From positions 1 through 39,088 of the forward strand of contig JAJVHY010000030.1 of the NCBI GenBank assembly GCA_022072455.1: a DNA stretch of 39,088 bases. The letters are read 5' to 3'. The notes under the pieces were generated by a model. The model worked only from the letters and a program-made list of their open reading frames with translations. It had not been told where the DNA came from and ran no database searches. Of this stretch, positions 2,212 to 22,690 are shown piece after piece (positions within the stretch are counted from its first letter, which is position 1; every line of letters starts with the position of its first letter). Made by a program: the position numbers and the translations under genes. Origin of the DNA: Verrucomicrobiia bacterium (lineage in GTDB: Bacteria > Verrucomicrobiota > Verrucomicrobiia > Palsa-1439).

Positions 2212-5200
2212 GTGAAAACAAACGCCCATTCTCCCTGGCCGGTTCTGAACCGGTATGACGCCAACCATCTCCGCCGGATCGCGCTGCCTCTCGGCGGCAT
2301 CGGCACCGGCACCGTCTCGCTGGGCGGTCGCGGCGATCTGCGCGACTGGGAACTAGTCAACCGTCCGGCCAAGGGCTTCATCCCGCCGGCCGAAGGACGC
2401 ATCGGTCCGTTCTTCGCCGTGTGGGTGAAACCGAAAGGCGGCCAGCCGGTGGCGCGCTTATTGGAGGGACCGTTGCCTCTTGAGACGTACGAAGGGTCAA
2501 TGGGGGCCACGCCGCTCAATCACGGCTTGCCGCGGTTTCGCGATTGCGAGTTCCACGCGGCGTATCCGTTGGGACAAGTCGTGTTGTCGGACCCAGCCAT
2601 GCCAGTGGATGCGCGACTCGAAGCGTTCAATCCCCTCATCCCCGGCGATGCCGACGCGAGCGGAATCCCAATGGTGGCGCTCCGGTATGTCCTGCACAAT
2701 CGCACCGGCAAGCCGCTCGAGGCGGCGATCTGCGGGATGGTGCCGAATTTCATCGGCGCTGATGGAGAGAATTCGACCGGCGTTGATTGGCTCGGCGCCC
2801 AACAATTTAGCGCACGCTACAAGGGAAACCAGAACGAATTCCGGCAGGGGCGAGGCGTGCATGGGGTTTATCTGTTTTCCAAGCAACTCGATCCCACGTT
2901 TGTCCAGTGGGGCACGCTGGCGTTGGCAGTTCTCGGTCAGCGCGCCGCCGCCGTGAGTTACCGGACGGCGTGGGCGGAAAAAGGTTGGGGCGATTCGACG
3001 CTCGATTTCTGGGAAGATTTCCTCGCCGATGGCCGGCTGCAGGAACGCGCGCAGGGCAAAGAAGGCGCGCCGAAGGCGACGCTCGCCACCCGGTTCACAA
3101 TTCCCGCGCGGGGCACAAAGTCAGTGACATTTCTCCTGACGTGGCACTTTCCAAACCGACAAAACTGGTTTCCACCGCGACCGGAAGATCGATCCGCCGA
3201 ATCTTCCCGGCCGCTCACGCCGTTCGTAATCGCGCCGCGCGTCAGCGAGTTACTGCCGTTTGCAGGCGCGATCGCCGGCTTGGAATATCCACCGACGCTC
3301 ACGGTCTCGCCCCGGGTCTTCGCGAACGCGCAGCAGTTCTGCAATGTCCGTGACGAGATTCTCGCGCGCGGCACCGCCAACACCCTCGTCTATTTCCAGA
3401 CGAAAATCCGCTGCGCCGAACCGATGGAATTGGATGCGCTGCTCGGCTACGACGGCCCGGTCGCCCTCTGGGTGAATGGCGCGAAAAGATTTATTGATTC
3501 GCACGGGACAAATCCGGCCGCGCCGGACACCGTCCGCGTGCCGTTTTCCGTACCGGCAGGTGACCACGAAATCCTCGTCGCGCTCAGCTCCAACGCCGGC
3601 AAAGCATGGGGAATCTACCTGCGGTTCGAACGCAAGAACGTGCCGCAACACACGGCCACGGTGCTCTTGCCGGTATTGTTGGACGCCCCACCCGCCAATA
3701 AACCCGCCGCCGCCGCCGCGGTCTGGACCGGCAATTATTACGCGACGCAATATCAGGACGCGTGGGATGTCGCGGTCAAGGTCGCGCCGCGCTTGCGGGA
3801 ATTGGAGCGGCGCACCGTGGCTTTTGTCCGGGCATTCGGTGATTCGGATTTGCCGGCCGCAGTCAAAGAGGCGGCGCTCAACAACGTCAGCACCTTGCGG
3901 ACACAGACGACGTTCCGAACGGCGGACGGTTTCTTGTTCGGTTGGGAAGGTTGTGCCGATCACGTCGGCTCCTGTTTTGGGTCGTGCACACACGTGTGGA
4001 ACTACGAGAACGCCCTCGGTTTCTTGTTCGGTGATTTGTCGCGCGGAATGCGCCGGGTCGAGTTTGAGCACGCAACGCTCCCCAGCGGGCTGATGTGTTT
4101 TCGCGTCGGACTGCCGTTGACGAACGCCCACGAATTTCCGAAAGCCGCCGCCGATGGCCAGTTGGGCGTCATCATGCGGTTTTACCGGGACTGGAAACTG
4201 TCCGGCGACGAAGCGTTTCTCCGGTCACTCTGGCCCAAGGTGCGGAAGGCGCTGGAGTTTTGCTGGATTCCCGGTGGCTGGGATGCCGACCAGGACGGCG
4301 TGATGGAAGGGTGCCAACACAACACGATGGACGTCGAGTACTACGGTCCGAATCCGCAGATGGGCATCTGGTATCTCGGTGCGTTGCGGGCGGCTACCGC
4401 AATGGCGGAGCACGTCGGCGACGATGATTTTGCGCAAACCTGCCGGAGTTTATTCGAACGCGGGCGCGACTGGATTGAGAAAAACCTGTTCAACGGCGAA
4501 TACTATGAGCACCAGATTTGGTCGCCCAAGGGGCCGATCGCGGATGGCTTGCGTATCGGCATGGGCGGCAGCGAAGTCGTGCCGGAGTATCAACTCGGGG
4601 CCGGCTGTCTGGTGGATCAACTCGTCGGACAATACATGGCGCACGCCATCGGGTTGGGGTACCTGATTGATCCCGGCCACGCGAAGACCACGTTGCGCAG
4701 TATCATGAAGTACAACTTCAAGGAAAGTTTCCACGATCACTTCAATCAATTACGCAGCTACGTCCTTGGCGACGAAGCAGCGCTGTTGATGGCCAGTTAC
4801 CCGCGCGGCAACCGGCCGGCCGTGCCGTTCCCGTATTACACCGAAGTGATGACCGGCTTCGAGTACACTGCCGCCGTCGGCATGCTCTACGAAGGGCTGA
4901 CGGCGGATGGTTTGAAATGCATCCGCGCCATTCGCGCCCGGTACGATGGCCGCAAACGCAGCCCGTGGAACGAAGCCGAGTGCGGCCACCACTACGCGCG
5001 GGCCATGGCGAGTTGGACGGCGGTATTAGCGCTGACCGGTTTCCAGTATTCCGCCGTGACCGGGACGATGGAGTTTGCCGCGTCGAAAAGACCGGTCACC
5101 TGGTTCTGGTCCACCGGTGCCGCTTGGGGCACCTGCCGGCAAGTGCCGCACCACGGAAACATTCAAGTCATGCTGCGAGTCGAGCATGGCACCGTGCGCC

Positions 5201-5295
5201 TCCGCCGCCTCCGCTTGGCCGGTCGCGGCGAGTCGGCCATCAAGGAACGCGTCCTCCGCGCCGGTCAGCAGTTGCAACTCCGTTGCCAAGGTTGA
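2212..5295 (+). CDS. GH116 family glycosidase (GBA2-like) with inserted domain
   Basis: A 1027-residue protein with no signal peptide, so probably cytoplasmic. The N-terminal GH116 domain has the family signature PLGGIGTGTVSLGGRGDL. The C-terminal alpha-helical catalytic domain (about 505-950) has QHNTMDVEYYGPN, with Glu709 the probable nucleophile, and CLVDQLVGQ, with Asp802 the probable acid/base by family analogy. Relatives (human GBA2, Thermoanaerobacterium GH116) remove beta-linked glucose, xylose or N-acetylglucosamine. About 185 residues (320-503) sit between the two domains and include a beta-rich stretch with LWVNGAKRF and VPAGDHEILVAL, resembling a carbohydrate-binding-like sandwich. 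Start is GTG2212 with no clear Shine-Dalgarno sequence; the gap of 96 bases from the gene before holds nothing recognised. The substrate cannot be told from sequence. Confidence 0.88.
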   Translation: MKTNAHSPWPVLNRYDANHLRRIALPLGGIGTGTVSLGGRGDLRDWELVNRPAKGFIPPAEGRIGPFFAVWVKPKGGQPVARLLEGPLPLETYEGSMGATPLNHGLPRFRDCEFHAAYPLGQVVLSDPAMPVDARLEAFNPLIPGDADASGIPMVALRYVLHNRTGKPLEAAICGMVPNFIGADGENSTGVDWLGAQQFSARYKGNQNEFRQGRGVHGVYLFSKQLDPTFVQWGTLALAVLGQRAAAVSYRTAWAEKGWGDSTLDFWEDFLADGRLQERAQGKEGAPKATLATRFTIPARGTKSVTFLLTWHFPNRQNWFPPRPEDRSAESSRPLTPFVIAPRVSELLPFAGAIAGLEYPPTLTVSPRVFANAQQFCNVRDEILARGTANTLVYFQTKIRCAEPMELDALLGYDGPVALWVNGAKRFIDSHGTNPAAPDTVRVPFSVPAGDHEILVALSSNAGKAWGIYLRFERKNVPQHTATVLLPVLLDAPPANKPAAAAAVWTGNYYATQYQDAWDVAVKVAPRLRELERRTVAFVRAFGDSDLPAAVKEAALNNVSTLRTQTTFRTADGFLFGWEGCADHVGSCFGSCTHVWNYENALGFLFGDLSRGMRRVEFEHATLPSGLMCFRVGLPLTNAHEFPKAAADGQLGVIMRFYRDWKLSGDEAFLRSLWPKVRKALEFCWIPGGWDADQDGVMEGCQHNTMDVEYYGPNPQMGIWYLGALRAATAMAEHVGDDDFAQTCRSLFERGRDWIEKNLFNGEYYEHQIWSPKGPIADGLRIGMGGSEVVPEYQLGAGCLVDQLVGQYMAHAIGLGYLIDPGHAKTTLRSIMKYNFKESFHDHFNQLRSYVLGDEAALLMASYPRGNRPAVPFPYYTEVMTGFEYTAAVGMLYEGLTADGLKCIRAIRARYDGRKRSPWNEAECGHHYARAMASWTAVLALTGFQYSAVTGTMEFAASKRPVTWFWSTGAAWGTCRQVPHHGNIQVMLRVEHGTVRLRRLRLAGRGESAIKERVLRAGQQLQLRCQG

Positions 5296-8920: not shown

Positions 8921-9493
8921 CTACGGCTCTTTCTGGCGTTCCCGCACCACGTCGCGAATCGGCCGGCCATCCACGAACAATTCCTCCAGCACGCCGTGCC
9001 CTTGCCGGATCCGCACCAACGCATACGTATTGAGATTCGTCTGCCCGCGCCGGTTGTTGTCCCAATACGCCCGCTCCGCCATCGGTGCCTTCGTCTCCTC
9101 CATGTAATACCGGTCAAACGGCAACGTGAAGTACGCCATCCCGGCGTTTGTCCCCCACCCGGAATAATGCACCATCACCCGCAAAAAATCCCCCGCTGCC
9201 GGTCGCGTCAGCGCCAGCTCGCTCACCACCGCAAACCCGTCTGTTCCCTCCACCACCGTCGCAAACGCCGGCATCCGCCGCACCACGTTCGTCCCCGTCC
9301 AAGCCGCGTGATCCTGCGCGTACCGCAACGCCACATACCGGCCCCGAAACGCATCATACGGATCCACCGGCGCCGTCTTAAACTTATACGCCCGCCCCTC
9401 GCGCAACGTCTGCTCCTGCCGGTGAATCATGTACCCCGGTATCCCCAGTTGTCCCACCGCCACCACCGCCAACAGAATCAACGTCAATTTCAT
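8921..9493 (-). CDS. GDYXXLXY domain protein
   Basis: A 190-residue protein with an N-terminal membrane or signal segment (LTLILLAVVAVGQLGIPGYMI) and DPYDAFRGRYVALRY, the family signature region. The rest is predicted to be extracytoplasmic. The family is uncharacterised and typically accompanies DUF2157 or DUF4401 membrane proteins, as here. Its ATG overlaps the stop of the DUF2157 gene by four bases. It is the last gene of the nine-gene operon; the next gene has its own promoter. Confidence 0.85.
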   Translation of the reverse strand: MKLTLILLAVVAVGQLGIPGYMIHRQEQTLREGRAYKFKTAPVDPYDAFRGRYVALRYAQDHAAWTGTNVVRRMPAFATVVEGTDGFAVVSELALTRPAAGDFLRVMVHYSGWGTNAGMAYFTLPFDRYYMEETKAPMAERAYWDNNRRGQTNLNTYALVRIRQGHGVLEELFVDGRPIRDVVRERQKEP

Positions 9494-10767
9494 TGCGCCT
9501 CCCGCGTCCGTTTGATCAACACAATGTTCGTCACCAAAAAACCCACGCCAACCGCGATGAACGCCAGCGCGCGCACCACGATGCTCATGTTACTGTCAAA
9601 AAACCGCGCGATGATCAGCACCGACACCACCAGCAACCCCAGATTCACCACGCCCAACCGCCGGTCGCGCACTCCCAAGCCAATCAAAGCCACGCCCAAC
9701 CCCAGCACATACAAATTCATCGCCACCACCATCAATCCGCCCGGCACAAATCTTCCCGCCACCGTCACCACCGGTAACGCGCCAAACAACAGCGCCACCG
9801 TGTTGCGGCGCGCCCAAGCCCAACCCCACAAACCGACCGCCACCGCCGGCATCACCAGCAACGGCGATTTCATCAAGAGCAACCACTCCTTCCGCTGGGC
9901 CCAATGCCGCCAGTAATCCTCGAACGTCAAAATCACCGCCAACGTGATCACGCCCAACGCCCCGATGGTCTGCAATGGTCGCTGCCAAATCGTGCGGCCC
10001 TCCCCCCACCACAACTCCCCAATCAGATACAACGCCGCAAAATAACTCGTGAACACCGGCACCCACACCGCGCCCCGGTAGTGATCCAACCCAAACCCGG
10101 TTCCAATCGCCGCACAAACACCGAGCGTCCACAACAACCACGCGACCCGCGGCCGATACCGGTCCACGCGTGCCACCGCCCACAAATGCGGCACCGCCAA
10201 CGCCGCCACCACCCAAAACCACCCGCGACCCGGCGCTTCCCAATACAAACTCCCAGCCCAACTCGTCGCCCCGACCCAAAACAGCATCGCCGCCGTGCTC
10301 GAATTCAACAGATAAACCACCGGCAGCGCTGCCAGCGTCCATGTCAGCAAAAACGCCGGTAAATCCCCACTGATATGATAGGTCTGCGCCACGAGCGAAA
10401 TGGACGCGCCGATGGCCAACACCCAAAACACCCCCACGCCCTCCCGCCACGCCCCACTTTCCGACTTACGCCAAATGACAAATGCCGCCAACGCCTGCGC
10501 CACCAGCAACGGCAACAGCGACAACACCGTCCGCGTCGGCCGGCCAAATTCATCCCAATTATGCGCCAGCAACAAAATCAACCCCGCCCCGATCAACGCC
10601 CCGCCCAAAATGCTGAACACTAGAATTGCGCCGCGCTTCCCGCCGCCTTCCCCACCCGCGCCATAGTGCGCCCGAATCCGCTCCGCCACGTCCGCCGGCA
10701 CAACCCCCGCGCCCGTCAGCTTCGGCAACTCCGCATTCAACCACCGCACATATTTTTGATCGCTCAT
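9490..10767 (-). CDS. DUF2157 multi-pass membrane protein
   Basis: A 425-residue protein with a soluble N-terminal helical segment (about 1-45) followed by many hydrophobic segments, about ten by eye. LVAQTYHISGD in the third to fourth segment is typical of DUF2157. The function is unknown; the family usually pairs with a GDYXXLXY protein, found directly downstream. Both ends overlap neighbours by ATGA, so expression is coupled to the GH3 gene before it. This ties an uncharacterised membrane pair to the radical SAM/GH3 cluster. Confidence 0.85.
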   Translation of the reverse strand: MSDQKYVRWLNAELPKLTGAGVVPADVAERIRAHYGAGGEGGGKRGAILVFSILGGALIGAGLILLLAHNWDEFGRPTRTVLSLLPLLVAQALAAFVIWRKSESGAWREGVGVFWVLAIGASISLVAQTYHISGDLPAFLLTWTLAALPVVYLLNSSTAAMLFWVGATSWAGSLYWEAPGRGWFWVVAALAVPHLWAVARVDRYRPRVAWLLWTLGVCAAIGTGFGLDHYRGAVWVPVFTSYFAALYLIGELWWGEGRTIWQRPLQTIGALGVITLAVILTFEDYWRHWAQRKEWLLLMKSPLLVMPAVAVGLWGWAWARRNTVALLFGALPVVTVAGRFVPGGLMVVAMNLYVLGLGVALIGLGVRDRRLGVVNLGLLVVSVLIIARFFDSNMSIVVRALAFIAVGVGFLVTNIVLIKRTREAQ

Positions 10768-12086
10768 GTTTTTACCGCTGCAAGTTCCCGCAGCCGTCGT
10801 CCTTTAAAGTGCTCAACCCACCCATCCTGCCGACTCAACCAAACCGGCTTCACATCCCCGAGGCGTTGACCGCGCGCTTGGCAAACCGCCAAGTATGTCG
10901 CCGCACCTCCAGTCACGATCCGAAAAGCTTGGACCGGCTCCAACTGTCCCAACTCCCGACAATACCGGTAGTGAACATTTTCTCGAAGCGCCATCTCCAA
11001 TTTCTCTGCCCAGACCTCCAAAGTTTCGTCAGCCATCTCCGTCTCCGCAAACAAGGTATACGCCCGCCCTTCACAAGCCACCAACACAAACTCCGCCGAC
11101 AACCCAACCAGCGCCGCTGCCACCTGCAACTCACTGACCTTCTCGCCGAACCGATCGCTCACGTTCGTCTCTTTACCAACAAATCGGAGCAGCGGACATT
11201 CACACTCAAACCCAGTCACGAGAATCCGGTCATTCAACCGGTACCGCTTCAATCCGCCACTTGTCGTCAACACCACGGAATACTCCCGTCCCGCCACCAA
11301 CTCATGCGCCAGCCACGACTTGCCGGCGCCGTCGAGGAATTCAAAGAAGTGCGACCGCAACGCCAACGCCGCACCCTCGCGACCCCACAGTGGTAACGAC
11401 ACAAAACCTTCCGTCGCAATCAAACCCTTCGGTTGAATCGTCGCCTGCGGAAGTTTTTCCCGCAACTCCGGCGCGTCATCCCAACAACTGATCACGCGCA
11501 ACTTCGGCCAGTCGGGTTCGACACCTTCCAGCAACAACGTCAAAAAGCTCGGATGCCATACCGAGATGAACGTCAAATCCCGGCACGCCAGCAAATGGCA
11601 CAGCGTTTCCTGCCGCCACTCCTTCGCCAATCGCACCGACGCCGGCACCGCCAGTGTTGCCGCGACCCATTTCCGCGCCGACCCAAGATATTCCGTGTCG
11701 TCGCCAAACTCCGCGCCTGTCTCGCCCACCGGCGAGATCGCCCAATACGACTTGCCGGCCAACATGCCGGGATTGTGGGAGAAAAGATCCACGATCCACG
11801 GCGCGATGCCGCGCTGGAACTCTTGGTAGAGCGACGCCGTGTACGGAATCCATTTCGTCGGCCCGGTCGTCCCGCTCGTCGGCAATCGGCGCACCACCGG
11901 CTCGTGCGGTTCACCGATCTCGTCCGTCAGAGGAAATCGCTCGAGAAATTCTTCCACCTCGCAGCCGGTAATCCGGCGCAAGACCAGCCGCTGCGTGCCG
12001 GCCACATTGCGCGTCGCGCGCAAGAACGCTGCTGCTTCCGGCAGGCACGACGCGAACCAGAGCGAGTTGGCCACGAGCGGAATCAC
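10764..12086 (-). CDS. GH3 family acyl-adenylating (acyl acid-amido synthetase-like) protein
   Basis: A 440-residue protein of the GH3 family, best known from plant enzymes such as JAR1 that adenylate a carboxylic acid and join it to an amino acid. The ATP-binding loop TSGTTGPTK lies at 70-78, near the start as usual, and later segments such as YSVVLTTSGGLKRYRLNDRI and FDGAGKS-like spacing fit the family. It is slightly shorter than typical plant members (about 600 residues), as is common in bacteria. GTG12086 is chosen because it overlaps the stop of the gene before as GTGA, matching the junction one gene upstream; an ATG at 12140 is possible. It probably activates the acid made by the radical SAM/GNAT part of the operon; substrate and partner are unknown. 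Confidence 0.85.
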   Translation of the reverse strand: MIPLVANSLWFASCLPEAAAFLRATRNVAGTQRLVLRRITGCEVEEFLERFPLTDEIGEPHEPVVRRLPTSGTTGPTKWIPYTASLYQEFQRGIAPWIVDLFSHNPGMLAGKSYWAISPVGETGAEFGDDTEYLGSARKWVAATLAVPASVRLAKEWRQETLCHLLACRDLTFISVWHPSFLTLLLEGVEPDWPKLRVISCWDDAPELREKLPQATIQPKGLIATEGFVSLPLWGREGAALALRSHFFEFLDGAGKSWLAHELVAGREYSVVLTTSGGLKRYRLNDRILVTGFECECPLLRFVGKETNVSDRFGEKVSELQVAAALVGLSAEFVLVACEGRAYTLFAETEMADETLEVWAEKLEMALRENVHYRYCRELGQLEPVQAFRIVTGGAATYLAVCQARGQRLGDVKPVWLSRQDGWVEHFKGRRLRELAAVKT

Positions 12087-12715
12087 AATGCCACCAACCT
12101 CCGGCCTGCCGCCGTCTGGTTCGCAGCCGTCAACGGACAAAGACAGACCAATTCATCGCCGGACGCGTGGCCGGGATTTTGTTGGGCGAAAAACTGGATG
12201 TGCGGATCGGCCAGCCGGCCCGACGGAATCTCTTTCAATCCATTGCGCAACATTTGCGGTTGGTGAAAATGCACTAGGCCATCCCGGTACAGCGAGCCAA
12301 AGCGTTGCCGGGCCAGCGTCTCCAGCAATGCCGGGCGGACCGGCGCATCATGCCGGGGCCAAAACTCTTTCCAGAACACCGGCAAAAACCGGTACGTCCG
12401 AAATCCCGACGTGATCAGCAGCCAATACTCCGGCTTCAACTCCCGGATCGTCTCCAACCATGTCCGCGCCAACGCCGTGCTACCCCACGCGTCGCGATGC
12501 ACAATCGTGTCACCCGAATGCACCACGCCATCGTGCACCAGCAACGTCGAAAACCCACGCAACACGCCGGCATCCTCCAGCAAAATCACCCAGTTCTTTT
12601 CGGCCAGGTCGCGCTCGAATTGCTCGCCTGTCACACCGACAAAATATTCCTGCAGCAGCGCCAGCATCGCAGCCTGTTCGTTCACGTCTTCGCGGCGGAC
12701 GAGTCGTCCTTTCAC
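12083..12715 (-). CDS. Uncharacterised conserved protein, possible acyltransferase
   Basis: A 210-residue soluble protein that I do not assign to a named family. The middle has GDTIVHRDAWGSTALAR and TSGFRTYRFLPVFWKEFWPR, and near the C-terminus DPHIQFFAQQNPGHASGDEL, which look like conserved blocks of a protein family. The N-terminal half (EKNWVILLEDAGVLRGFST) has a GNAT-like beta-strand rhythm, so an acyltransferase fold is possible but not shown. The start is GTG12715, overlapping the stop of the GNAT-like gene as GTGA; no sensible ATG exists, because upstream sequence in frame is the shadow of that gene. It lies between the GNAT-like and GH3 genes and is probably part of the same pathway. 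Confidence 0.75.
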   Translation of the reverse strand: MKGRLVRREDVNEQAAMLALLQEYFVGVTGEQFERDLAEKNWVILLEDAGVLRGFSTLLVHDGVVHSGDTIVHRDAWGSTALARTWLETIRELKPEYWLLITSGFRTYRFLPVFWKEFWPRHDAPVRPALLETLARQRFGSLYRDGLVHFHQPQMLRNGLKEIPSGRLADPHIQFFAQQNPGHASGDELVCLCPLTAANQTAAGRRLVAL

Positions 12716-13497
12716 AGCCACGCCACCTCCCAACGTACCGGCCCATCGAACGGCGCGCCCGGTTCGTGTACGACATACAGTTGGCTCTCGTACACGCGCG
12801 GCCGGTAGCGCCGACGTAGCTCCGACAATTGTGGATGCGACGCCGGCAGCGCCAGCACCACCCACCGGCAATCCGCCGGCACATTTCCCGAACCGTCCGC
12901 ATAGGCAATCGGCAACACGCTCCCGACCGGCAACCGCAACCACAACTGCGCCCAAATCGAGTCATACCCCCGCACGACGACTTGCTTGTGCTCGCGCAAA
13001 TCACGCGCGCCAAACCCGGCGCGAGCCGGCAACAGCAGCGTCACGATTTTCTCGATGGGCCGGTAAACTGGCAGCCCCGGCAAGCCGGCTTCGAGCACGC
13101 GACGCGCGACGTGGTTGTCGCTGACAATCGTGGTGACATCATACGGCGCTTCATCCGCGGCGTGTGACTCGCGCAACATCCGAAAGCCGACTCGCAAGAA
13201 TTGCCGGGTGAGATGCCGGTGCGACGGGGCGATGCGGAGTTGATGGAGGTATCCCACGCCGGTCGGCCAAACGGTCCGACTGGCCATCGCAACGATCTGG
13301 CCGGCTTCGCGGGCGCAGACGGTGTAATGCCGGCTGCCTTCGCGGCGGACCGAGGCGAAATAACTCGGCTCGCGCTCGAAGCTCAACCGGATCGCGCCGC
13401 CGATGGGCGTTTCGCGCAGCAATACGCGCAAGCCGGCATCGTCGGCGTCCGTGGCGAAACCGCAGGTCAGTTGGCTTGTAAGAGTTGTCCCTGCCAT
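12712..13497 (-). CDS. GNAT-like N-acetyltransferase family protein
   Basis: A 261-residue soluble protein. The N-terminal 150 residues read like a GNAT domain: REAGQIVAMASRTVW, then YLHQLRIAPSHRHLTRQFL, which resembles the strand plus acetyl-CoA loop (here without the full Q/R-x-x-G-x-G/A motif), then TIVSDNHVARRVLEAG, the typical N-x-x-A-x-R-x-L helix. The C-terminal 100 residues (YDSIWAQLWLRLP onward) are not recognised. ATG13497 is preceded by GGAGA at a good distance. It overlaps the end of the radical SAM gene before by 31 bases, the only junction in the operon that is not a 4-base overlap. The substrate is unknown. Confidence 0.75.
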   Translation of the reverse strand: MAGTTLTSQLTCGFATDADDAGLRVLLRETPIGGAIRLSFEREPSYFASVRREGSRHYTVCAREAGQIVAMASRTVWPTGVGYLHQLRIAPSHRHLTRQFLRVGFRMLRESHAADEAPYDVTTIVSDNHVARRVLEAGLPGLPVYRPIEKIVTLLLPARAGFGARDLREHKQVVVRGYDSIWAQLWLRLPVGSVLPIAYADGSGNVPADCRWVVLALPASHPQLSELRRRYRPRVYESQLYVVHEPGAPFDGPVRWEVAWL

Positions 13498-14789
13498 GCT
13501 TCGTCTCCGAGCGGAAGGCCGTCGCGTTGTGCAATCTCGCGACGGATCATTGCGTTGATCATGAAATAGTGGCCCGGCAAACAATCCTGCCGGCGCTTCC
13601 AGATGCCGCCGAGTCGGTAAAACCGCCGCCGCGCTTCGAGGCATTGCCGCTGCAATTCTTCGGGCGGCATGTGTTTCACGCGGTAGGGAATCATGTTGTA
13701 GCGGTAGCGTTCGTCGAGCCACCAAGCGTCGTAGAGCAGCCGGCTTTCTTTCGCGAGCCGTTCGTAGAGCGGCGTGCCGGGGAACGGCGTGAGATGATTG
13801 AACGCCGCGATGAACAAGCCTTGCTCCTCCGCAAATCGCACCGTCTCGGTAAAGACCTCCGGCGTGTCGTCGTCGTAGCCGAAAATAAACGTGCCATACA
13901 CGCCAAGGCGATGCCGGCGCAGATTGGCGAGCGCGCCCTCGAAGCCGGCGTTCCAACCCTTGTGCATCGTCCGCAGGTTGTTTCGATTCAAACTCTCGAA
14001 GCCGATGAGCACCGCCTGGCAACCGGCCCGCGCGAGCAATTCGAGAAACTCCTCGTCGTGCGCCGCGTTGATGCTCGCTTGGCTGACCCAGCGGATGCCG
14101 AGCGGCGCGAGCGCGCGGAGGAAATCTTTCGCCTGTTCGAGATTTGACGTGATGTTGTCGTCCACGAAAAAGAAATACCGGTGCCGCAACCGACGCAGTT
14201 CGGCCACGATTTCGTCGGGCGGCCGGCGGGTCTGCGTCGCGCCGAAGACCGATTGCACAGCGCAAAACTCGCAACGGAACTGACAACCTCGACCTGCTTC
14301 CACAAGTCCGAGTTTCACATACCGCTTGCCGGCGAAGATGCTCCGGTCCGGTTGGAGTCCCACCAACGAAGGCCGGGAAGTCTGCCGGTAAAACTTCTGC
14401 GGCGTCCCGTGCCGGTAATCGTCAATCACGCGCGGCCAGATCCCTTCCGCCTCGCCAATGACGACCGACTCCGCAAACCGCGCCACTTCCGCCGGGCACA
14501 GGGTCGCGTGAAACCCGCCCATCACCACCGGCACGCGCCGTCGCCGGTATTCCGACGCGATTTGATACGCCCGCCGGGCGGTGTACGTCTCGACGCTGAT
14601 GGCGATGAGGTCGGTCGGCTCATCGAATGGGATCGTTTCCATCCGGTCGTCGTAGAATTTCACGGCGACATCTTTGGGAGTCAGCCCGGCAATCACCGCG
14701 GCCGGCAGCGATTCCATCTGCCACGTCCGCAAATACCGCCGGTCGCCGCGATGCCGGCCTATGCAGGGATGGATGATCGTGAGTTTCAT
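13467..14789 (-). CDS. B12-binding-type radical SAM enzyme (third of three)
   Basis: A 440-residue enzyme with an N-terminal cobalamin-binding-like Rossmann domain (about 1-135, with VVMGGFHATLCPAE) and a radical SAM barrel whose [4Fe-4S] cysteines are Cys169, Cys173 and Cys176 in GRGCQFRCEFC. The C-terminal helical region has PFPGTPLYERLAKE and MPPEEL, as in HpnP/BchE-like groups. The family carries out methylations and other hard C-H chemistry using SAM and often cobalamin; the classical DxHxxG is absent, as in many of the group. ATG14789 overlaps the stop of the second radical SAM gene by four bases. Its substrate is unknown, but the three tandem enzymes suggest successive steps on one molecule. 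Confidence 0.9.
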   Translation of the reverse strand: MKLTIIHPCIGRHRGDRRYLRTWQMESLPAAVIAGLTPKDVAVKFYDDRMETIPFDEPTDLIAISVETYTARRAYQIASEYRRRRVPVVMGGFHATLCPAEVARFAESVVIGEAEGIWPRVIDDYRHGTPQKFYRQTSRPSLVGLQPDRSIFAGKRYVKLGLVEAGRGCQFRCEFCAVQSVFGATQTRRPPDEIVAELRRLRHRYFFFVDDNITSNLEQAKDFLRALAPLGIRWVSQASINAAHDEEFLELLARAGCQAVLIGFESLNRNNLRTMHKGWNAGFEGALANLRRHRLGVYGTFIFGYDDDTPEVFTETVRFAEEQGLFIAAFNHLTPFPGTPLYERLAKESRLLYDAWWLDERYRYNMIPYRVKHMPPEELQRQCLEARRRFYRLGGIWKRRQDCLPGHYFMINAMIRREIAQRDGLPLGDEAWQGQLLQAN

Positions 14790-16129
14790 ACCGGCTGCAA
14801 CATTGGTGGAATCGGCGTACCAACAAACGCATCGCAAGTGTAAAACCGGCGCAGGTTGTGGGCGTAACGCCGGTACGTCAGGTTGGCGGCCCAGATGAAT
14901 GGGGGCAAAGCCGGCGAGGCGCGCAGACGTTTGGCGATGGACGCGAAACTGTACGCGTGTTTCCACGCCGCTTCCGCCCCGCGCTGTAATTCATCCACGC
15001 TCATCTGTGCCGGCTGATAAACAACATGTTGGGCGTCGTAGAGTTCCCAATCGCGCGTCAGGATGCGGCCTTCGCTTTCCAAGCGCCGGTAGAGCGCCGT
15101 GCCGGGAAACGGCGTTGCGATGGCGAACCGCGGCAGATCAATCTTCGCATCCACCGCAAACTGCGCCGTCTTCAGAAACACGTCCGTCGTGTCGTGGTCC
15201 GCGCCAAACACAAAACACGCATTCAACGCGATGCCGTGCGCGTGCAGCCGCTCGACAATCTGCACGTAATCCTCCGGCGCGTTGAAACCCTTCTTGCAGT
15301 CGCGCAATGAGTCTTCCGAGATGGACTCGAACCCCATCAACACACCCCGGCAACCACTACGTTGCGCCAGTTCGAGCATCGGAAGGTCATTCCCAAACAT
15401 CGTCGTCACCAACCCATGCCATTGCACCTGCAATGGAACCAACGCCTCAAACAACTCCTTCGCATACGCTCGATCGGCATACAGATTGAGATCCACGAAC
15501 AAGATTTGGCGTTTACCGTGTTGCCGGATGTCCGCGACGACATCGGCCACCGGCTTCTGGTAAAGTTTGCGCCCCCACGCCGCCGGCACGACGCAAAACT
15601 CACAGTCATGCAAGCACCCGCGTTGCGCCTCGAATACTGCGTCGGTGATGTAGCGGTTCGGCAACAACTCGCGCCGCGCGAACGCCCGGTCGGCCAGGCT
15701 CAAAGTCGGAGACTGATCATACCGGGCGCGCATCTGACCGGCGGCGAAGTCCCGCAATAATTCCGGCCACGTATCCTCGGCATACCCGACCACAATCGCG
15801 TCTGCGTGTGGCTGCGCGTCTTCGGGGATCAACGTAACATGTGGTCCACCAAGCACGACCGGAATGCCCCGCCTCCGAAAATGATCGGCCAATTCATACG
15901 CGCGCATCGCCGTCCCGGTAATGACCGTCATCCCGATGAGGTCAGCTTCGATGTCGAGAGGCACGTCTTGAATGCCCTCGTCGACGAGCTCAACGTCGAA
16001 ATCCGGTGGTGTCAACGTCGCCAGTGTCGTCAATGTCAACGGCTTGTAGCGGAGCGCGCGACCAAAAATGCCGCCACGATGCCGGTAGAGCGGCCCTTTG
16101 GGCGAGATCAATACAATGCGTTGCATCAT
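14786..16129 (-). CDS. B12-binding-type radical SAM enzyme (second of three)
   Basis: A 447-residue enzyme built like its neighbours. The B12-binding-like domain spans about 1-130 (VVLGGPHVTLIPED), the SAM cluster cysteines are Cys172, Cys176 and Cys179 (RGCLHDCEFC), and the C-terminal region has PFPGTALYRRLESEGRIL and an MSVDELQRG stretch, typical of the DUF4070-like tails of HpnP relatives. The N-terminal KGPLYRHRGGIFG and the whole N-half differ from the other two copies, so this is an old paralogue and not a recent duplicate. ATG16129 overlaps the stop of the first radical SAM gene (ATGA). The substrate is unknown. Confidence 0.9.
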   Translation of the reverse strand: MMQRIVLISPKGPLYRHRGGIFGRALRYKPLTLTTLATLTPPDFDVELVDEGIQDVPLDIEADLIGMTVITGTAMRAYELADHFRRRGIPVVLGGPHVTLIPEDAQPHADAIVVGYAEDTWPELLRDFAAGQMRARYDQSPTLSLADRAFARRELLPNRYITDAVFEAQRGCLHDCEFCVVPAAWGRKLYQKPVADVVADIRQHGKRQILFVDLNLYADRAYAKELFEALVPLQVQWHGLVTTMFGNDLPMLELAQRSGCRGVLMGFESISEDSLRDCKKGFNAPEDYVQIVERLHAHGIALNACFVFGADHDTTDVFLKTAQFAVDAKIDLPRFAIATPFPGTALYRRLESEGRILTRDWELYDAQHVVYQPAQMSVDELQRGAEAAWKHAYSFASIAKRLRASPALPPFIWAANLTYRRYAHNLRRFYTCDAFVGTPIPPMLQPV

Positions 16130-17463
16130 ACGGCCATTGCTTCGGCGTGGATTGTAGAGCGTGCCCGCCATTCTTGGAAGAACTTCCCGCGCCGGTCCGT
16201 CGTGCATTCGTCACTGTAAAGCTCCGTCGTCAGCCAGCGCATACCGGACTGCAACTCGGCAACGCTCATTCCGCGCGGCCGGTAGTTCACGTCGAAGAGC
16301 GTGCACAAGTCCCACCGGCCCGGCTCGATCACGCGACCTTCCCGGAGCAATCGCGCGTACAGCGGCGTACCGGGGAATGCCGTCAGCACCGTGATCTGCA
16401 CGTCGTAGAGCGACACTTGCCGGGTGAAGTCGAGCACTTGCTCGAAGATGCCGGTGTCGTGGCCATCCAAACCGAGAATGAAGCAGCCGTTCACCGTGAT
16501 GCCGTGCGCCTGGATGCGCGCGATGGCACTCGCATACCGGTCGAACCAGCGCGCCTTGAAATCCCGGTTCATTTCCAACCCATGCAACGGTTCGCGCGCT
16601 GGACTCTCCAACCCAATCAACACCTGCCGGCACCCGGCGGCGTGCATCAAGTCGAGCAACTCCGCATCTTCCGCCACCGAAATGTCAGTCTCGGTAAACC
16701 ACTTCAACCGCAACGGCGCCAGCGCCCGGCACAACTGTTTGCCCCACGTCTTGTCCACAAACGTGTTGTCGTCGGCAAACTCGATGAACGGTCGCTCCCG
16801 CATTTGCTGTATCGCGCCGATGTCACGGATCACGTCCCACACCGGCCGTTTCCGGTACGGCTGACCGAGCATGACGTTTGACGCGCAGAACTCGCACCGC
16901 CACGGACACCCCCGCGTCGTCTGTACTGTGAACCGGTTGTATGGCCGGTCGCCGAGCAAATCATAGCGCGGTACCGGCAACCGCATCACGTCCACGGCTG
17001 GATACATTTTGGCCGAAAACGTCCGCGCCGGTGCCTCGCGCTCCGCTGCGCGCACCACTTCCGGCCACACATTCTCGCCTTCGCCAACGACCACGTAGTC
17101 CGCGTGAGCGAAAGCCTCTGCCGGCAACGCCGTTACATGCAGGCCGCCCATCGCCACCTTCACCCCGGCCAGTCGGAGCCGGTCGGCAATCGCGTAGGCC
17201 TCGAATACTTGCGCTGAAAACGTGCTGATCGCGACGAGGTCGCAATCATACACCGCCGCTGGTTCCTTGCCGTCGGCTTCTGCCTCGAAGTACTCGAGAT
17301 CGTGGCCGGCCGGCGTGGCGGCAGCCAGATACAACAAGCCCAAACTCGGCAACGACGCAATCGCCTTGCTGCGCTCGACAAACCCCGGCAGCGTCAAGCC
17401 GAGTTCGAGCAATTCCGGGTCATGCGCCCGAATACCGCTCATTGCGAGAAAGCCAATTTTCAT
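16126..17463 (-). CDS. B12-binding-type radical SAM enzyme (first of three)
   Basis: A 445-residue enzyme. The B12-binding-like domain covers about 1-140 (MGGLHVTALPAE) and the cluster cysteines are Cys186, Cys190 and Cys193 (TRGCPWRCEFC). The barrel continues to about 400 with FADDNTFVDKTWG and LTAFPGTPLYARLLREGRV, followed by a helical tail with RGMSVAELQ. ATG17463 has GGAGG seven bases upstream, the best ribosome-binding site in the operon, and overlaps the stop of the small membrane protein. It is the most upstream enzyme of the set, so probably the best expressed. Reaction and substrate are unknown. Confidence 0.9.
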   Translation of the reverse strand: MKIGFLAMSGIRAHDPELLELGLTLPGFVERSKAIASLPSLGLLYLAAATPAGHDLEYFEAEADGKEPAAVYDCDLVAISTFSAQVFEAYAIADRLRLAGVKVAMGGLHVTALPAEAFAHADYVVVGEGENVWPEVVRAAEREAPARTFSAKMYPAVDVMRLPVPRYDLLGDRPYNRFTVQTTRGCPWRCEFCASNVMLGQPYRKRPVWDVIRDIGAIQQMRERPFIEFADDNTFVDKTWGKQLCRALAPLRLKWFTETDISVAEDAELLDLMHAAGCRQVLIGLESPAREPLHGLEMNRDFKARWFDRYASAIARIQAHGITVNGCFILGLDGHDTGIFEQVLDFTRQVSLYDVQITVLTAFPGTPLYARLLREGRVIEPGRWDLCTLFDVNYRPRGMSVAELQSGMRWLTTELYSDECTTDRRGKFFQEWRARSTIHAEAMAV

Positions 17464-17870
17464 TTTGAACCTCCATCGTTCTTCTCGGCCACGACGGAGC
17501 GTGGCCCTCCAAGGGTTATGGAGGGACGCGCTCCGTCGCGTCCGCCGCTGAGCATAATGATCACCCCCACCACCAAACTCACCACCGGCACGAAAAACAG
17601 ATGCCGGAACGGCTTGCGCCACGCCGTGAGAAAACAAACCGCCGGCATCGTCACGCTCCCGACCGCCAACCAGAGTGAAGCGACTGGCGACAGCCCGACG
17701 ATCAAATTCAACATCCCCAACGCCGCGCACGCGATGTGACCGAGTCGCAGCATCCGTCGCTGAAACGAACCGTAGCCACCGAGAAATCCGTCGCGATGGA
17801 AAAACAACCCCAAGACCGCTCCACTCAGGAAGCCCGCCAAGATCAACCACCAACCAATGATCCAGTTCAT
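17460..17870 (-). CDS. Small four-segment membrane protein, first gene of the operon
   Basis: A 136-residue protein with about four hydrophobic segments (WWLILAGFLSGAVLGLFF; GHIACAALGMLNLIVGL; ASLWLAVGSVTMPAVCFL; LFFVPVVSLVVGVIIML). The family is not recognised. The hydrophilic C-terminal tail, about residues 110-128, is encoded by a palindromic repeat (17487-17543). ATG17870 has a GGGAG Shine-Dalgarno sequence. Its stop overlaps the start of the first radical SAM gene. It could anchor the enzymes or move their substrate, but nothing in its sequence shows this. Confidence 0.75.
   Translation of the reverse strand: MNWIIGWWLILAGFLSGAVLGLFFHRDGFLGGYGSFQRRMLRLGHIACAALGMLNLIVGLSPVASLWLAVGSVTMPAVCFLTAWRKPFRHLFFVPVVSLVVGVIIMLSGGRDGARPSITLGGPRSVVAEKNDGGSK
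17487..17543. repeat. Palindromic element A, in frame in membrane-protein gene
   Basis: Two 25-base halves (17487-17511 and 17519-17543) are reverse complements at 21 of 25 positions, around a 7-base centre. Each half also folds on itself (CCACG/CGTGG; GACGCG/CGCGTC). The element contributes the hydrophilic C-terminal tail of the small membrane protein without a stop codon. Its words (ACGGAGCGTGGCCCTCC) look like those of a dispersed verrucomicrobial repeat. Confidence 0.8.
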
Positions 17871-17883: not shown

Positions 17884-17902
17884 TTTGCTACCGGCGTGCC
17901 AA
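17884..17902 (-). promoter_or_regulatory. Sigma-54-like promoter of the radical SAM operon
   Basis: On the minus strand the sequence is TTGGCACG, four bases, then TAGCAAA. GG (complement of 17899-17900) and GC (complement of 17887-17888) are exactly ten bases apart, and TTGGCACG matches the consensus fully; TAGC replaces TTGC. The divergent gene 90 bases away encodes a sigma-54 activator. Against it, the predicted transcript start (about 17875) is only five bases from ATG17870 and lies beyond the Shine-Dalgarno sequence. Confidence 0.5.
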
Positions 17903-17989: not shown

Positions 17990-19399
17990 ATGAATCTCAC
18001 CGGGGCACAGCGGGAGTTTCTGACGCTCGTGACGCGGGCAGCGGCCTGCAATCCATTCAGCGACGAGTTCGCGCAGTTGCAGGCCCGCATCACCGGCGGG
18101 CGGAAGGTGAGCCTCGTCGACCGGTGGAACACCGAACTCCACAATCTCCAAGCGGCCGGCTTCACCAGTTTCAAACAAGCCGAGGGCGCCGACCGCGAGA
18201 TTCTCCGGTACGCGAGCCTGTACGAAATCTATCACCGGTATCTGGCCGCGTTCGATGAACTGATCGCGGCGCAATTGTCTGCCGGCGACCGCAGCGTGCC
18301 CGTCCCGTTTGCCGGCAAAGCACTGACGCTGTTCGCCCGGCGCGGATTCAACGCGGAGGAGGCGCGCCGGCATTTTGCGATCATGTTTCAGATTCGCCGG
18401 GCTTTCCGCTTTATTGATCGCGGACTGGTCGGCCAGAGCGAATGCATGAAGGAACTCCGCCGGCATCTCTGGAACAATGTTTTTACTCACGACATCCGAT
18501 TTTACGCCGAGCATTTGTGGAATCGGATGGAAGACTTTTCCACGCTGTTGCTCGGCGAGACCGGCACCGGCAAGGGCGCGGCGGCGGCGGCGATAGGCCG
18601 GTCGGGGTTTATTCCGTTCGACGAGAAGCGCGGTTGTTTCGCGGAGAGTTTTACACGGACATTCCTCCCATTGAATCTGTCACAATTCCCGGAGACGCTG
18701 CTTGAATCGGAATTGTTTGGTCACCGGAAAGGTGCGTTTACCGGGGCGATCGCGGATCATGAGGGCGTGTTTGCGCGGTGCAGTCCGCACGGCGCGATCT
18801 TCCTCGACGAAATCGGCGATGTCAGCGGGCCGGTGCAGATCAAACTGCTGCACGTCCTGCAAGACCGGACGTTCACCCCGGTCGGCAGTCACGACCAGAT
18901 CCGGTTTCGTGGCCGGGTGATCGGTGCGACGAACAAACCAATTGAACAACTCCGCCAGACCGGCCAGTTCCGCGACGATTTCTTTTACCGGCTTTGTTCG
19001 GATGTGATCATCGTCCCGCCGCTCCGGCAACGGATCGCGGAAGATTCAAGCGAATTGGACGATCTGATCGCGTTGATTACGACGCGACTGACCGGACAAC
19101 CCGTACCCATCGCCCTGGGATTGCCCGCGCACTACGCGTGGCCCGGCAACGTCCGTGAACTGGAGCAGGCAATCCGGAGGGTGTTGTTGACGCAGCGGTA
19201 TACCGGCGATCAACGCGCGGTGGCGCCGGATGTGGCGGGGCGGTTGCAGGCCGGGGTCGCCGACGGTTCGCTGGATGCGGATGCATTGTTGGCGGGGTAT
19301 TGCCGGTTGTTGTATGAGCGGCACGGCACTTACGAGGAAGTGGCGAGACGGACGAATCTCGACCGGCGCACCGTGAAGGCGTATATCGGAAAACAATGA
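17990..19399 (+). CDS. Sigma-54-dependent transcriptional activator (AAA+)
   Basis: A 469-residue regulator. The N-terminal 145 residues match no response-regulator, GAF or PAS pattern that I recognise, so the signal it senses is unknown. The AAA+ domain has Walker A GETGTGKG (189-196), an intact sigma-54 contact loop GAFTGA (248-253), Walker B AIFLDEIGD (about 269-277) and PGNVRELEQAIRR. The C-terminus has a short helix-turn-helix (VARRTNLDRRTVKAYI). It should hydrolyse ATP to open RpoN promoters. The divergent radical SAM operon has a GG-N10-GC site and is its likely target. The ATG is at 17990; no good Shine-Dalgarno is seen. Its stop overlaps the next start as ATGA. Confidence 0.92.
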   Translation: MNLTGAQREFLTLVTRAAACNPFSDEFAQLQARITGGRKVSLVDRWNTELHNLQAAGFTSFKQAEGADREILRYASLYEIYHRYLAAFDELIAAQLSAGDRSVPVPFAGKALTLFARRGFNAEEARRHFAIMFQIRRAFRFIDRGLVGQSECMKELRRHLWNNVFTHDIRFYAEHLWNRMEDFSTLLLGETGTGKGAAAAAIGRSGFIPFDEKRGCFAESFTRTFLPLNLSQFPETLLESELFGHRKGAFTGAIADHEGVFARCSPHGAIFLDEIGDVSGPVQIKLLHVLQDRTFTPVGSHDQIRFRGRVIGATNKPIEQLRQTGQFRDDFFYRLCSDVIIVPPLRQRIAEDSSELDDLIALITTRLTGQPVPIALGLPAHYAWPGNVRELEQAIRRVLLTQRYTGDQRAVAPDVAGRLQAGVADGSLDADALLAGYCRLLYERHGTYEEVARRTNLDRRTVKAYIGKQ

Positions 19400-21171
19400 A
19401 CGCGCGGTGGCGATTCTTGATCTGTTTGTTGCTCGTGGGCGTGCTCTATGCCGGGCATGTCGGGCTGAAGCTGGCGAAGATTTACAATCATCCGACCTGG
19501 GATGCGCAGGACGAGGTGGGACAGTTTTGGAGCGAGTTTGCGTTTCATTACCGGTTCGCGAAGTTTTTTGCGACACACGCTGACTGGAGCGAGTTGAGCC
19601 GGGATCGGCAGGTGCAGTACCCGGATACGATTGATGATTGGGCGGAGTTCACTGTCGCGATGGAGGTGCCGGTGGGGGTGCTGTACCGGTGGCTGAAGCC
19701 GGCAGTTCCGTTGCATGTGTTCGTGGTTTGGTACGGGTGTTTGGTGTCGAGTTTGACTCTGTTTGGGGTTTTCTTTTTGGCGCGAGCCTTGTGGCGGAGC
19801 GCTGGGGCCGGGGTGTTGGCGAGTGTGTTGTACGCGACGTTGTATCCGAGCTATGGGCGGACAGTGAAGAATCTGTTTCTCCGGGAAGACTTCGCGATTC
19901 CGCTGATTGTGTTCGCACTCTACTTCACGGTTTGCGCACTGCAGGATAAACGCCGGTGGCAGCAAATTGGGGCGGCCTTGTTCTGGTTGGCGGCGCTGGC
20001 GAGTTGGCATTTGACGCAGTTTGTGTTGGCGGTGGGCGTGGGCGCGGCGGTATTGGTGTACCTCGGCAAGGGCGAGACTCCGCGAGTGCCGTGGTTTGTG
20101 TTGGTGCTGACCGCCGGCAGTGTGGTCATACCGGTGTTGTGGGCGAAACAACTATATCTGTCGCCAGTGATGTGCGTGGTGTACGCGCTGTCGCTGGCGG
20201 TGTGGATCAATGGGGGGCGGAAAAAGGCGACGCTGGTTTTTGCCGGGTGGTTGGTTGTGTTTCTGGCGGCAAGTTTCTTGTTGCGGAAGTCGTACGGCGA
20301 GTACGCGCATGTTTACCAATTGTTTTTCTACAAGCTCCGGTATCTGGGGGTGAAACCCGAGGATCCGGCCTTGCTGCCGTGGGAGGCGCGGTGTCTGTGG
20401 GAAGGCGCATTCAACACGGCTCCGCTGGGCGAGTGGTGGCACAGTTTGGTGTGGTGCGGGCCGTTGGCAGTCGTGGGCATCGTAGCGGCGCTCTTTGAGC
20501 GCCGTTCAGGTAATCAACTGGACAGCGACGGTCATAGACCGCCGCTACAGATTTTTGCTGTCTTCACGTTAATGTTGGTGCCGTTATCGTGGATGGTGGT
20601 CCGGTATTTTACATTTCTCGGTTTTGCAGCGGCGGTGGTGGCGGCGGGGTTGATGACCCGGCGAATCTGGTGGCGGGCGGCGGTCATTGTCGCCGCTGGT
20701 TGGCAAGTGGCGTTGCTGAATTTTGAGCCGTTGGATCGCACCCCGGTCGTGCCGGACAATTACAAGCCGCTCGTGAAATGGATCAATGCGAATACGTCGA
20801 CGAATGCGGTGTTTCTCGCCAGCATCGCGGAAGCGCCGGTATTCCTGGCGCATACCGGGCGACCGATCATTTTGCACTCGAAGTTTGAGAATTGGGAGAT
20901 TCGCGAGCGGTACCGGCAGTTTCTGGCGGCAGTTTATGGGACGCCGGCGGAGTTGGTGGAGTTTTGCCGCCGGTATGGGGCGGATTATTTGGTGTTCGAT
21001 GCCGGCTTCTTTATCACCGCGAAGGATTCACGCCGGTATAAGGCGGATAAACTTGGGGAGCTGGCGCCGGATTGCGCGGCGGTTTTGTTGGTGACGCAGC
21101 GGGTGCCGGAGTTTGAGCCGGTGTTCAGCGCCAACGGTTACACGATCTTGCGCGTCAAGGCTGCACCATGA
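19396..21171 (+). CDS. Multi-pass GT-C/STT3-like membrane protein
   Basis: A 591-residue protein with one N-terminal membrane segment, an acidic first loop (HPTWDAQDEVGQFW, then HYRFAKFF), about ten more membrane segments and a soluble C-terminal domain of about 150 residues (from VKWINANTSTNAVF). The layout resembles GT-C glycosyltransferases, especially the STT3/PglB/AglB group, whose first loop carries acidic catalytic residues; the WWD motif of STT3 is not seen, so oligosaccharyl transfer is not established. Residues 363-385 (loop between membrane segments) come from palindromic element B. It overlaps the sigma-54 activator by four bases, so the two are co-expressed. The last 17 bases overlap the convergent binding-protein gene. 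Confidence 0.7.
   Translation: MNARWRFLICLLLVGVLYAGHVGLKLAKIYNHPTWDAQDEVGQFWSEFAFHYRFAKFFATHADWSELSRDRQVQYPDTIDDWAEFTVAMEVPVGVLYRWLKPAVPLHVFVVWYGCLVSSLTLFGVFFLARALWRSAGAGVLASVLYATLYPSYGRTVKNLFLREDFAIPLIVFALYFTVCALQDKRRWQQIGAALFWLAALASWHLTQFVLAVGVGAAVLVYLGKGETPRVPWFVLVLTAGSVVIPVLWAKQLYLSPVMCVVYALSLAVWINGGRKKATLVFAGWLVVFLAASFLLRKSYGEYAHVYQLFFYKLRYLGVKPEDPALLPWEARCLWEGAFNTAPLGEWWHSLVWCGPLAVVGIVAALFERRSGNQLDSDGHRPPLQIFAVFTLMLVPLSWMVVRYFTFLGFAAAVVAAGLMTRRIWWRAAVIVAAGWQVALLNFEPLDRTPVVPDNYKPLVKWINANTSTNAVFLASIAEAPVFLAHTGRPIILHSKFENWEIRERYRQFLAAVYGTPAELVEFCRRYGADYLVFDAGFFITAKDSRRYKADKLGELAPDCAAVLLVTQRVPEFEPVFSANGYTILRVKAAP
20482..20548. repeat. Palindromic element B, in frame in STT3-like gene
   Basis: The outer arms GTAGCGGCG...CGCCGCTAC are reverse complements at about 19 of the first 23 positions. 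Each half is itself a hairpin: CGGCGCTC-TTT-GAGCGCCG is perfect, and CGACGGTC-ATA-GACCGCCG has one mismatch. The element is translated as a polar stretch (ERRSGNQLDSDGHRPPLQ) between two membrane segments. The words resemble a dispersed verrucomicrobial repeat. Confidence 0.85.
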
Positions 21172-22615
21172 CGTACCGGAACAGGATGTCCCCGGTGATT
21201 TCGTAGCGGATACCGGTGATGTTCGCCCGGCAAGCCAGCATGGCCGGGGCGTGCGCGAGCGGGACCATCGGGACTTCGTCGGCAATGATTTCTTGTGCTT
21301 GCCGGTAGAGGGCGGCGCGTTTGGCCGGATCGGTTTCGCGCCGGGCGGCGACGACGAGTTTGTGGTAGTTCTCGTTTTTCCAAAAGCAGATGTTCAATGC
21401 GGAGCCGAGGGTGGCGGTGTCTTTGTCGAGGAGGGTGTAGAGGAAATTGTCGGGGTCGCCGTTGTCGCCAACCCAGCCGAGGAGGGCGAGTTCGTGTTCG
21501 CCGCGACTGGTGCGACTGAGGTGCGCGCCAAATTCGTTCGAGACGATTTCGATGGGAATGCCGGCTTTGGCACAATCGGCTTTAATCAACTCGGCGGCGC
21601 GAATTGGATTTGGCAAATAGGCGCGCGGGTTGGTCATGACCTCCAAGCGGAGAGGCGCGGGTCGAGTGGTGAGGGGCGGGGACGGTAGGCGTTCAGGTGT
21701 GGCATCGTTGTGACCGAGAAGCGCTGGCGGCAAGGGGTTTTTGGCGATGGTGCCGTGGTTGCGATAGACGATGGCAAGGAGGTCTTTTTTGTTGATCGCG
21801 GCGGCGATGGCGCGGCGGAGGTTTTTGTCTTTGAGTTTGTCGCAGTTGAACGAGAGGTAGGCGACGTTGAGGCCAGGAGCCGAGATGAGTTTGACTTTCT
21901 TGTCGCGCTGGATGAGCGGGATGTCGTTGGGGTCGAGGCCGTCCATCGCTTGAATCTGGCCGGTCTGGAGTTGGATGAAGCGCGTGGCGGAATCGGGTAC
22001 GACTTTGAAGATGAGTTGGGCGAGTGGCGGGGCGCCGTCCCAATAGTCGCGATTGGCGGCGAGGGTGATTGTCTCGTTGGGTTTCCATTCGACAAACCGG
22101 AAGGGGCCGGTGCCGACAACTTGTTGTTGGTTGATGAATTTTGGACTGATGAGGCTGGCGGAGAAACTGGCAAGGTTGGCGAGGAATGGGGCGTGGGGTT
22201 CGCGAAGCCTGAATTCCAGCGTGCCGGCATCGAGTGCTTTGACAGATTCGACCATCGCGAACATCGAAGTCCAGTAGGCGAAGGTGCCGGCCTTGGGACG
22301 CGCTGGGTGGTCCTTGTCCTTTTGCCGGAGGAACGAGACGAGGGCGGTATCGGCATTGAGCGGGGTGCCGTCGTGGAATTTGACGCCTTGCCGGAGTTGG
22401 AAGGTGTAGGTGAGACCGTCGGGGCTGATCTTCCAAGAGGTGGCGAGACAGGGTTCGATCTCGGCGGTGCCGTGTTTGAAACGGACGAGTCCTTCGCAGA
22501 CGTTGAGGAGGACTTTGACGGACTCGCCGTCGTCCACGTCGGCGGGATCGAGTTTTTGCGAATCAGCACCGCGGGCGAAAATCAGGGCGGCAGCCAGCAA
22601 CGGGAGGAAGTTCAT
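21155..22615 (-). CDS. Family 5 (DppA/OppA-type) extracytoplasmic solute-binding protein
   Basis: A 486-residue protein with a short signal peptide (MNFLPLLAAALIFARGA) and the SBP_bac_5 fold: VKVLLNVCEGLVRF at the start, PDGLTYTFQLRQGVKFHDG (the family signature) near 75-95, and FNCDKLKDKNLRRAIAAAI in the middle. Such proteins deliver peptides or similar solutes to an ABC permease; no permease or ATPase gene is beside it, so it may serve a transporter elsewhere. ATG22615 is chosen over longer in-frame starts because a signal peptide begins there and a promoter ends seven bases upstream. It is divergent from the exosortase gene and its 3' end overlaps the convergent GT-C gene by 17 bases. Confidence 0.88.
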   Translation of the reverse strand: MNFLPLLAAALIFARGADSQKLDPADVDDGESVKVLLNVCEGLVRFKHGTAEIEPCLATSWKISPDGLTYTFQLRQGVKFHDGTPLNADTALVSFLRQKDKDHPARPKAGTFAYWTSMFAMVESVKALDAGTLEFRLREPHAPFLANLASFSASLISPKFINQQQVVGTGPFRFVEWKPNETITLAANRDYWDGAPPLAQLIFKVVPDSATRFIQLQTGQIQAMDGLDPNDIPLIQRDKKVKLISAPGLNVAYLSFNCDKLKDKNLRRAIAAAINKKDLLAIVYRNHGTIAKNPLPPALLGHNDATPERLPSPPLTTRPAPLRLEVMTNPRAYLPNPIRAAELIKADCAKAGIPIEIVSNEFGAHLSRTSRGEHELALLGWVGDNGDPDNFLYTLLDKDTATLGSALNICFWKNENYHKLVVAARRETDPAKRAALYRQAQEIIADEVPMVPLAHAPAMLACRANITGIRYEITGDILFRYVMVQP

Positions 22616-22622
22616 AGGCGTG

Positions 22623-22651
22623 ATGTTACTGGAGCGCGCGGAGACCGGCAA
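22623..22651 (-). promoter_or_regulatory. Sigma-70-type promoter, leaderless arrangement (binding protein)
   Basis: On the minus strand, TTGCCG (complement of 22646-22651), a 17-base spacer and TAACAT (complement of 22623-22628) end seven bases before ATG22615. The transcript would begin at or next to the start codon; no Shine-Dalgarno sequence is visible. Confidence 0.5.
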
Positions 22652-22661
22652 GGGGCGGCGT

Positions 22662-22690
22662 TTGACTTTGCCGGGAGCGACTACTAGACT
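22662..22690 (+). promoter_or_regulatory. Sigma-70-type promoter of exosortase operon
   Basis: TTGACT (22662-22667), a 17-base spacer and TAGACT (22685-22690). An in-frame TTG at 22698 lies seven bases past the -10 box, and ATG22719 lies 28 past it. No Shine-Dalgarno sequence precedes ATG22719, so a leaderless start at TTG22698 is possible. Confidence 0.6.

Follow-up and report, generated by a model that had tools for sequence, protein, structure and literature searches.

Results

The window, i.e., the whole stretch of 39,088 nucleotides that was analysed, carries nine minus-strand ORFs (g1 to g9) between positions 17870 and 8921, which were re-derived from its sequence with intact frames and are listed in Table 1 together with the divergent gene beside them. 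As the initial annotation had stated, the ORFs are joined by seven exact 4-base overlaps, five of the ATGA type (g1/g2, g2/g3, g3/g4, g7/g8, and g8/g9) and two of the GTGA type (g5/g6 and g6/g7), and by one overlap of 31 bases (g4/g5). These overlaps go beyond chance because several of the couplings recur in relatives, where 4-base overlaps are seen again at g3/g4, g5/g6, and g6/g7, and where seven cases have a start codon positioned such that g4 and g5 could likewise overlap by 31 bases. The view that the nine ORFs are expressed together and follow a pathway logic not recognised so far is supported.

Table 1. Genes of the operon and the adjacent divergent gene, with positions in the window.
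Feature	Coordinates	Strand	Description
g1	17460..17870	-	136 aa, four membrane-like segments, no family; accompanies g2, not the core
g2	16126..17463	-	B12-binding radical SAM protein, CPWRCEFC; separate clade, homologues elsewhere in the class
g3	14786..16129	-	B12-binding radical SAM protein, CLHDCEFC; core; single clade across several phyla
g4	13467..14789	-	B12-binding radical SAM protein, CQFRCEFC; core; <=69% identity to relatives
g5	12712..13497	-	261 aa, short copy of a double-GNAT, N-myristoyltransferase-like family; C-terminal Leu kept
g6	12083..12715	-	Single-domain GNAT-fold protein
g7	10764..12086	-	GH3-type acyl-acid ligase, 440 aa
g8	9490..10767	-	DUF2157 membrane protein; probably an older neighbour, outside the core pathway
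g9	8921..9493	-	GDYXXLXY protein, partner of g8
Sigma-54-type AAA+ protein	17990..19399	+	Divergent; near g8-g9 in a relative without g1-g7

A recent foreign origin of g1-g7 was rejected, as their GC and GC3 values resemble those of the surrounding genes. A sigma-54-like site with one mismatch lies upstream of g1 on the minus strand (17886-17901), beside the divergent AAA+ gene; it was discarded as a promoter candidate, since the window holds 21 such sites against 20.9 expected. Elsewhere in the window, a Dpy19-family membrane protein adjoins the AAA+ regulator (19396-21171), genes for an EpsH-type exosortase, a DUF3485 protein, a sugar transferase, and an epimerase stand in line as an exosortase/polysaccharide cluster (22410-26936), and a large protein of the GH116-type beta-glucosidase family is encoded at 2212-5295.

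A conserved core of five genes

Relatives of g4 were taken from named genomes and 33 of their loci were closely inspected; a GH3 gene is also present in 22 of them. Genes g3, g4, g5, g6, and g7 share a locus in records with the labels Verrucomicrobiota, Acidobacteriota, Chloroflexota, Deinococcota, Pseudomonadota, Spirochaetota, and Bacillota, and incomplete sets occur under the labels Planctomycetota and Bacteroidota. This makes about nine phylum labels overall, which come from the record titles of mostly metagenome-assembled genomes and may be wrong in some cases. The core order is found in two arrangements, g3g4g5-g6g7 and g6g7-g3g4g5. Eighteen further g5 loci in the phylum were considered, and a matching radical SAM gene accompanies g5 in 16 of them, as does g6 within a short flank in 16. 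A survey of 384 genomes of the class detected a GH3 relative (E < 1e-40) in 10 genomes and a strong g3 match in 8, all of which were among the 10; the corresponding P value of 4e-15 assumes independent genomes and, these being related, overstates the independence. Among 11 genomes of the order, g6 was found only in that of the window, and no g4 relative was found in viral contigs. Altogether, g3-g7 may well constitute a core pathway, so far uncharacterised, whose genes have been kept together in many bacterial phyla.

The scattering of the genes in relatives that would speak against a joint function was thus not found for g3-g7. The initial proposal extended to all nine genes as a unit, and in this form it had to be given up: a single nine-gene pathway is rejected because g1-g2 and g8-g9 are both found without the core. 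The g1-g2 pair recurs in many genomes of the class with no core beside it, g2 homologues are located on contigs other than that of the core in two core genomes, and g2 orthologues show no clear enrichment among the core genomes (2/7 vs. 27/376, P = 0.09, window genome excluded). The pair appears to have joined the core in the lineage of the window. At five loci, g2 homologues have beside them another membrane-type protein of about 250-415 aa (cluster c3), which matches no family above cut-off. As to g8-g9, one family member (G008) has a homologue of the AAA+ regulator (70% identical) and g8-g9 within about 1.2 kb, with short unrelated ORFs between them and g1-g7 absent. This suggests that g8-g9 were probably at the site earlier, and that g1-g7 either entered the junction between the AAA+ gene and g8-g9 or were lost elsewhere, the alternative state being seen in one relative.

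The surroundings of the core vary. Rieske, FA_desaturase-family, PAP2, and SnoaL-like proteins are encoded near it in part of the loci, and SPASM radical SAM proteins are found nearby in Chloroflexota. In genome G222, g6-g7-g5 are accompanied by desaturase-type, AurF-like, and Rieske proteins, and neither g3 nor g4 was detected at the locus; oxygen-dependent enzymes may substitute for the radical ones there. Further radical SAM paralogues are carried by core loci of Chloroflexota, Trueperaceae, and Clostridia-like genomes, and at seven loci from Chloroflexota and Clostridia-like genomes two extra B12-type paralogue lineages adjoin the core. On one contig (L039) g6 and g7 are matched twice, at 1-1931 and 11861-14205, with equal g7 scores, which represents a tandem copy or an assembly repeat.

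Radical SAM enzymes

The assignment of g2, g3, and g4 as B12-type radical SAM enzymes was confirmed, as the B12-binding and Radical_SAM domains exceed the Pfam cut-offs and the CxxxCxxC motif is present in each. In the phylogenetic tree each of the three forms one clade; the g3 and g4 clades span many phyla, and g2 was sampled solely from genomes of the window's class. Among NCBIfam models, the radical SAM proteins obtain their highest scores with HpnJ, BchE, PhpK, and the ladder-lipid family, all of them far below cut-off. HpnJ, BchE, and the TIGR04072 ladder-lipid enzymes share the B12-binding and radical SAM architecture with g2-g4, but their gene neighbours differ and the best scores of 97.9, 81.2, and 76.6 bits compare with equivalog cut-offs of 577.6, 481.35, and 360, respectively, thus the hopanoid (HpnJ), BchE, and ladderane pathways were rejected. 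Methylation or rearrangement of an acid had been proposed as a possible role of these enzymes; since the best models, all sub-cut-off, are HpnJ, BchE, and ladder-lipid, methylation is not preferred to remodelling of the skeleton.

Two GNAT-type proteins and a GH3 ligase

The protein g6, which the initial annotation had left as uncharacterised, is predicted with high confidence (pLDDT 95.6) to adopt the fold of the GNAT superfamily as a single domain, with a structural Z of 12.8 to GCN5 (2.8 A over 149 residues).

For the g5 family, the structure was predicted from the relative L030 and not from the g5 of the window. The L030 model (pLDDT 85.4) is a double GNAT that aligns with N-myristoyltransferase (NMT) at a structural Z of 20.2 (3.9 A over 286 residues), and the fifty highest structural Z values among Foldseek's top chains all belong to NMTs. 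The NMT alignments extend to residue 360, the last of the model, and likewise reach the terminus of the NMT chains. Beyond its last strand the model has a tail of 21 residues, for which pLDDT is about 90. When ranked by Foldseek E-value, a tandem GNAT of the clavulanate pathway (2wpx) comes first; it is, like the g5 family, a double GNAT from a bacterial biosynthetic cluster, but the match is only one of fold, with no counterpart when PDB sequences were searched with a profile. The same profile search retrieved no NMT, and no NMT family was among the Pfam matches of 22 g5 members. The predicted resemblance of the g5 family to NMT is a strong parallel, but a structural one.

Thirty-nine distinct g5 members give a hit that extends to the end of the model; the last residue is Leu in 38 of them and Met in the remaining one. 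Five more distant members, in which the hit falls short of the model end, terminate in Leu (two), Val (two), or Ile (one). The ends of g3, g4, g6, and g7 in the same loci are variable in both length and residue. A by-product of gene overlap was rejected as the origin of the terminal Leu, as all six Leu codons are used, all three stop types occur, and Leu is kept even where g6 does not follow downstream. In NMT, the C-terminal carboxylate acts as the catalytic base (PMC7048800), a feature that has been described as setting NMT apart from all other GNATs (PMC4964394), and the double-GNAT protein HisAT stops right after its last strand (PMC12219266). Eukaryotic NMT and the modelled g5 family thus have in common the double-GNAT fold, a C-terminal tail after the last strand, and an end at which the fixed residue of g5 aligns with the catalytic end of NMT; they differ in that sequence homology is not detectable, g5 belongs to a bacterial biosynthetic cluster, and the window copy is without part of domain 2. 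The fixed end is what would be expected if the terminal carboxylate of g5 served as a catalytic base.

All three GH3 domains (N, M, and C) of g7 exceed the Pfam cut-off, and equivalents of the three nucleotide-binding motifs are present as TSGTTGPTK, IATEG, and GGLKRYRLND, which are divergent from those of plant GH3. This is the sole GH3 match found in the window's genome, and its first description as a GH3-type acid-activating enzyme is well founded, g7 being a likely acid-amine ligase.

Both g5 and g7 of the window are shortened. Relatives of g5 have mostly 345-390 aa (about 370) and relatives of g7 about 500-555 aa; g5 is missing stretches within its second GNAT domain, and g7 also lacks segments. 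Invariant residues of the families or motif equivalents are retained in both proteins, which may either work in a compact form or be in decay; the g5 of the window is possibly reduced or altered in its function.

Discussion

No characterised pathway was found that matches the core, in agreement with the initial annotation, and no description of a g3-g7 cluster was found in the open-access literature searched. We propose, with a probability of about one half, that the core builds an acyl-amide, which is rather lipid-like than not, through ligation by the GH3 enzyme, NMT-like N-acylation, and radical remodelling. Gene order, folds, motifs, the invariant C-terminus of g5, and the neighbours are the observations from which we infer the reactions, their substrates, and the product. 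In this scheme, g7 would activate a carboxylic acid with ATP and join it to an amine, while g5 would move an acyl group, probably a long-chain one, from acyl-CoA to an amine, with the carboxylate at its own C-terminus serving as the base in the fashion of NMT. The g6 protein could act as another acyltransferase or as a partner, and g3 and g4 would use cobalamin-dependent radical SAM chemistry to remodel the skeleton of the acyl or amine part. The lipid reading is limited by the fact that GH3 enzymes act also on non-lipid acids and that the lipid-type neighbours occur at only part of the loci. Of the new lipid, signalling molecule, or natural product that was first envisaged, a lipid or a natural product is what we continue to presume.

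The most serious alternative, which we nevertheless consider rather unlikely, is a non-lipid natural product, for which the GH3 enzyme would couple an amine with an amino or aromatic acid, intermediates would be acetylated by the GNATs, and the scaffold would undergo methylation or rearrangement by the radical SAM enzymes. The broad range of acids accepted by GH3 enzymes fits such a product, as do the sub-cut-off matches of the radical SAM proteins to the methylase models PhpK and HpnR and the first rank of the clavulanate-pathway enzyme for g5, but the NMT-like tail and invariant C-terminus of g5 and the desaturase, Rieske, and PAP2 neighbours point away from it.

A bacterial GH3 enzyme that produces N-acyl ornithine is known, and the OlsH/OlsI pathway to ornithine lipids in planctomycetes (PMC12493201), in which a GH3 ligase is central and an amide is formed between a fatty acid and an amine as proposed for the core, is the nearest characterised relative in logic. 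The core could accordingly make an ornithine-lipid-like aminolipid, with g7 as an N-acyl amino acid synthetase of the OlsH type and the other enzymes modifying the acyl chain or the head group. The nucleotide motif equivalents in g7 agree with this, and the GH3 relative of L030 matches the OlsH model; OlsI is an alpha/beta hydrolase, and proteins resembling alpha/beta hydrolases (c7) are encoded near several cores. We regard this explanation as improbable, since the scores reach 21.3 bits for the window and 48.9 bits for L030 against an OlsH cut-off of 620, c7 has no Pfam match, and the cassette of the window contains no such hydrolase gene. The gene set also differs, and radical SAM enzymes are not mentioned in the paper on OlsH/OlsI. 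Least probable of all is a decaying pathway whose operon no longer yields its product after the loss of segments from g5 and g7, as all frames are open, the couplings are intact, the motif equivalents and the C-terminal Leu are retained, and the overall and third-position GC is similar to that of the neighbours.

Returning to the acyl-amide, we tentatively suggest that it could represent an undescribed, possibly lipid, class whose synthesis in many phyla relies on a pair of B12-radical SAM enzymes together with a GH3 ligase and a bacterial NMT-type enzyme that has a C-terminal carboxylate as its base. New in this analysis are the predicted single-GNAT fold of g6, the predicted double-GNAT fold of the g5 family, for which NMTs are the closest solved folds by structural Z, and the nearly constant terminal Leu of that family. 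If the proposal is true, a new bacterial small molecule or membrane lipid, formed in part by radical chemistry, would be spread across several phyla, and the existence of a bacterial protein with an NMT fold and a fixed catalytic end would bear on the origin of NMT chemistry.
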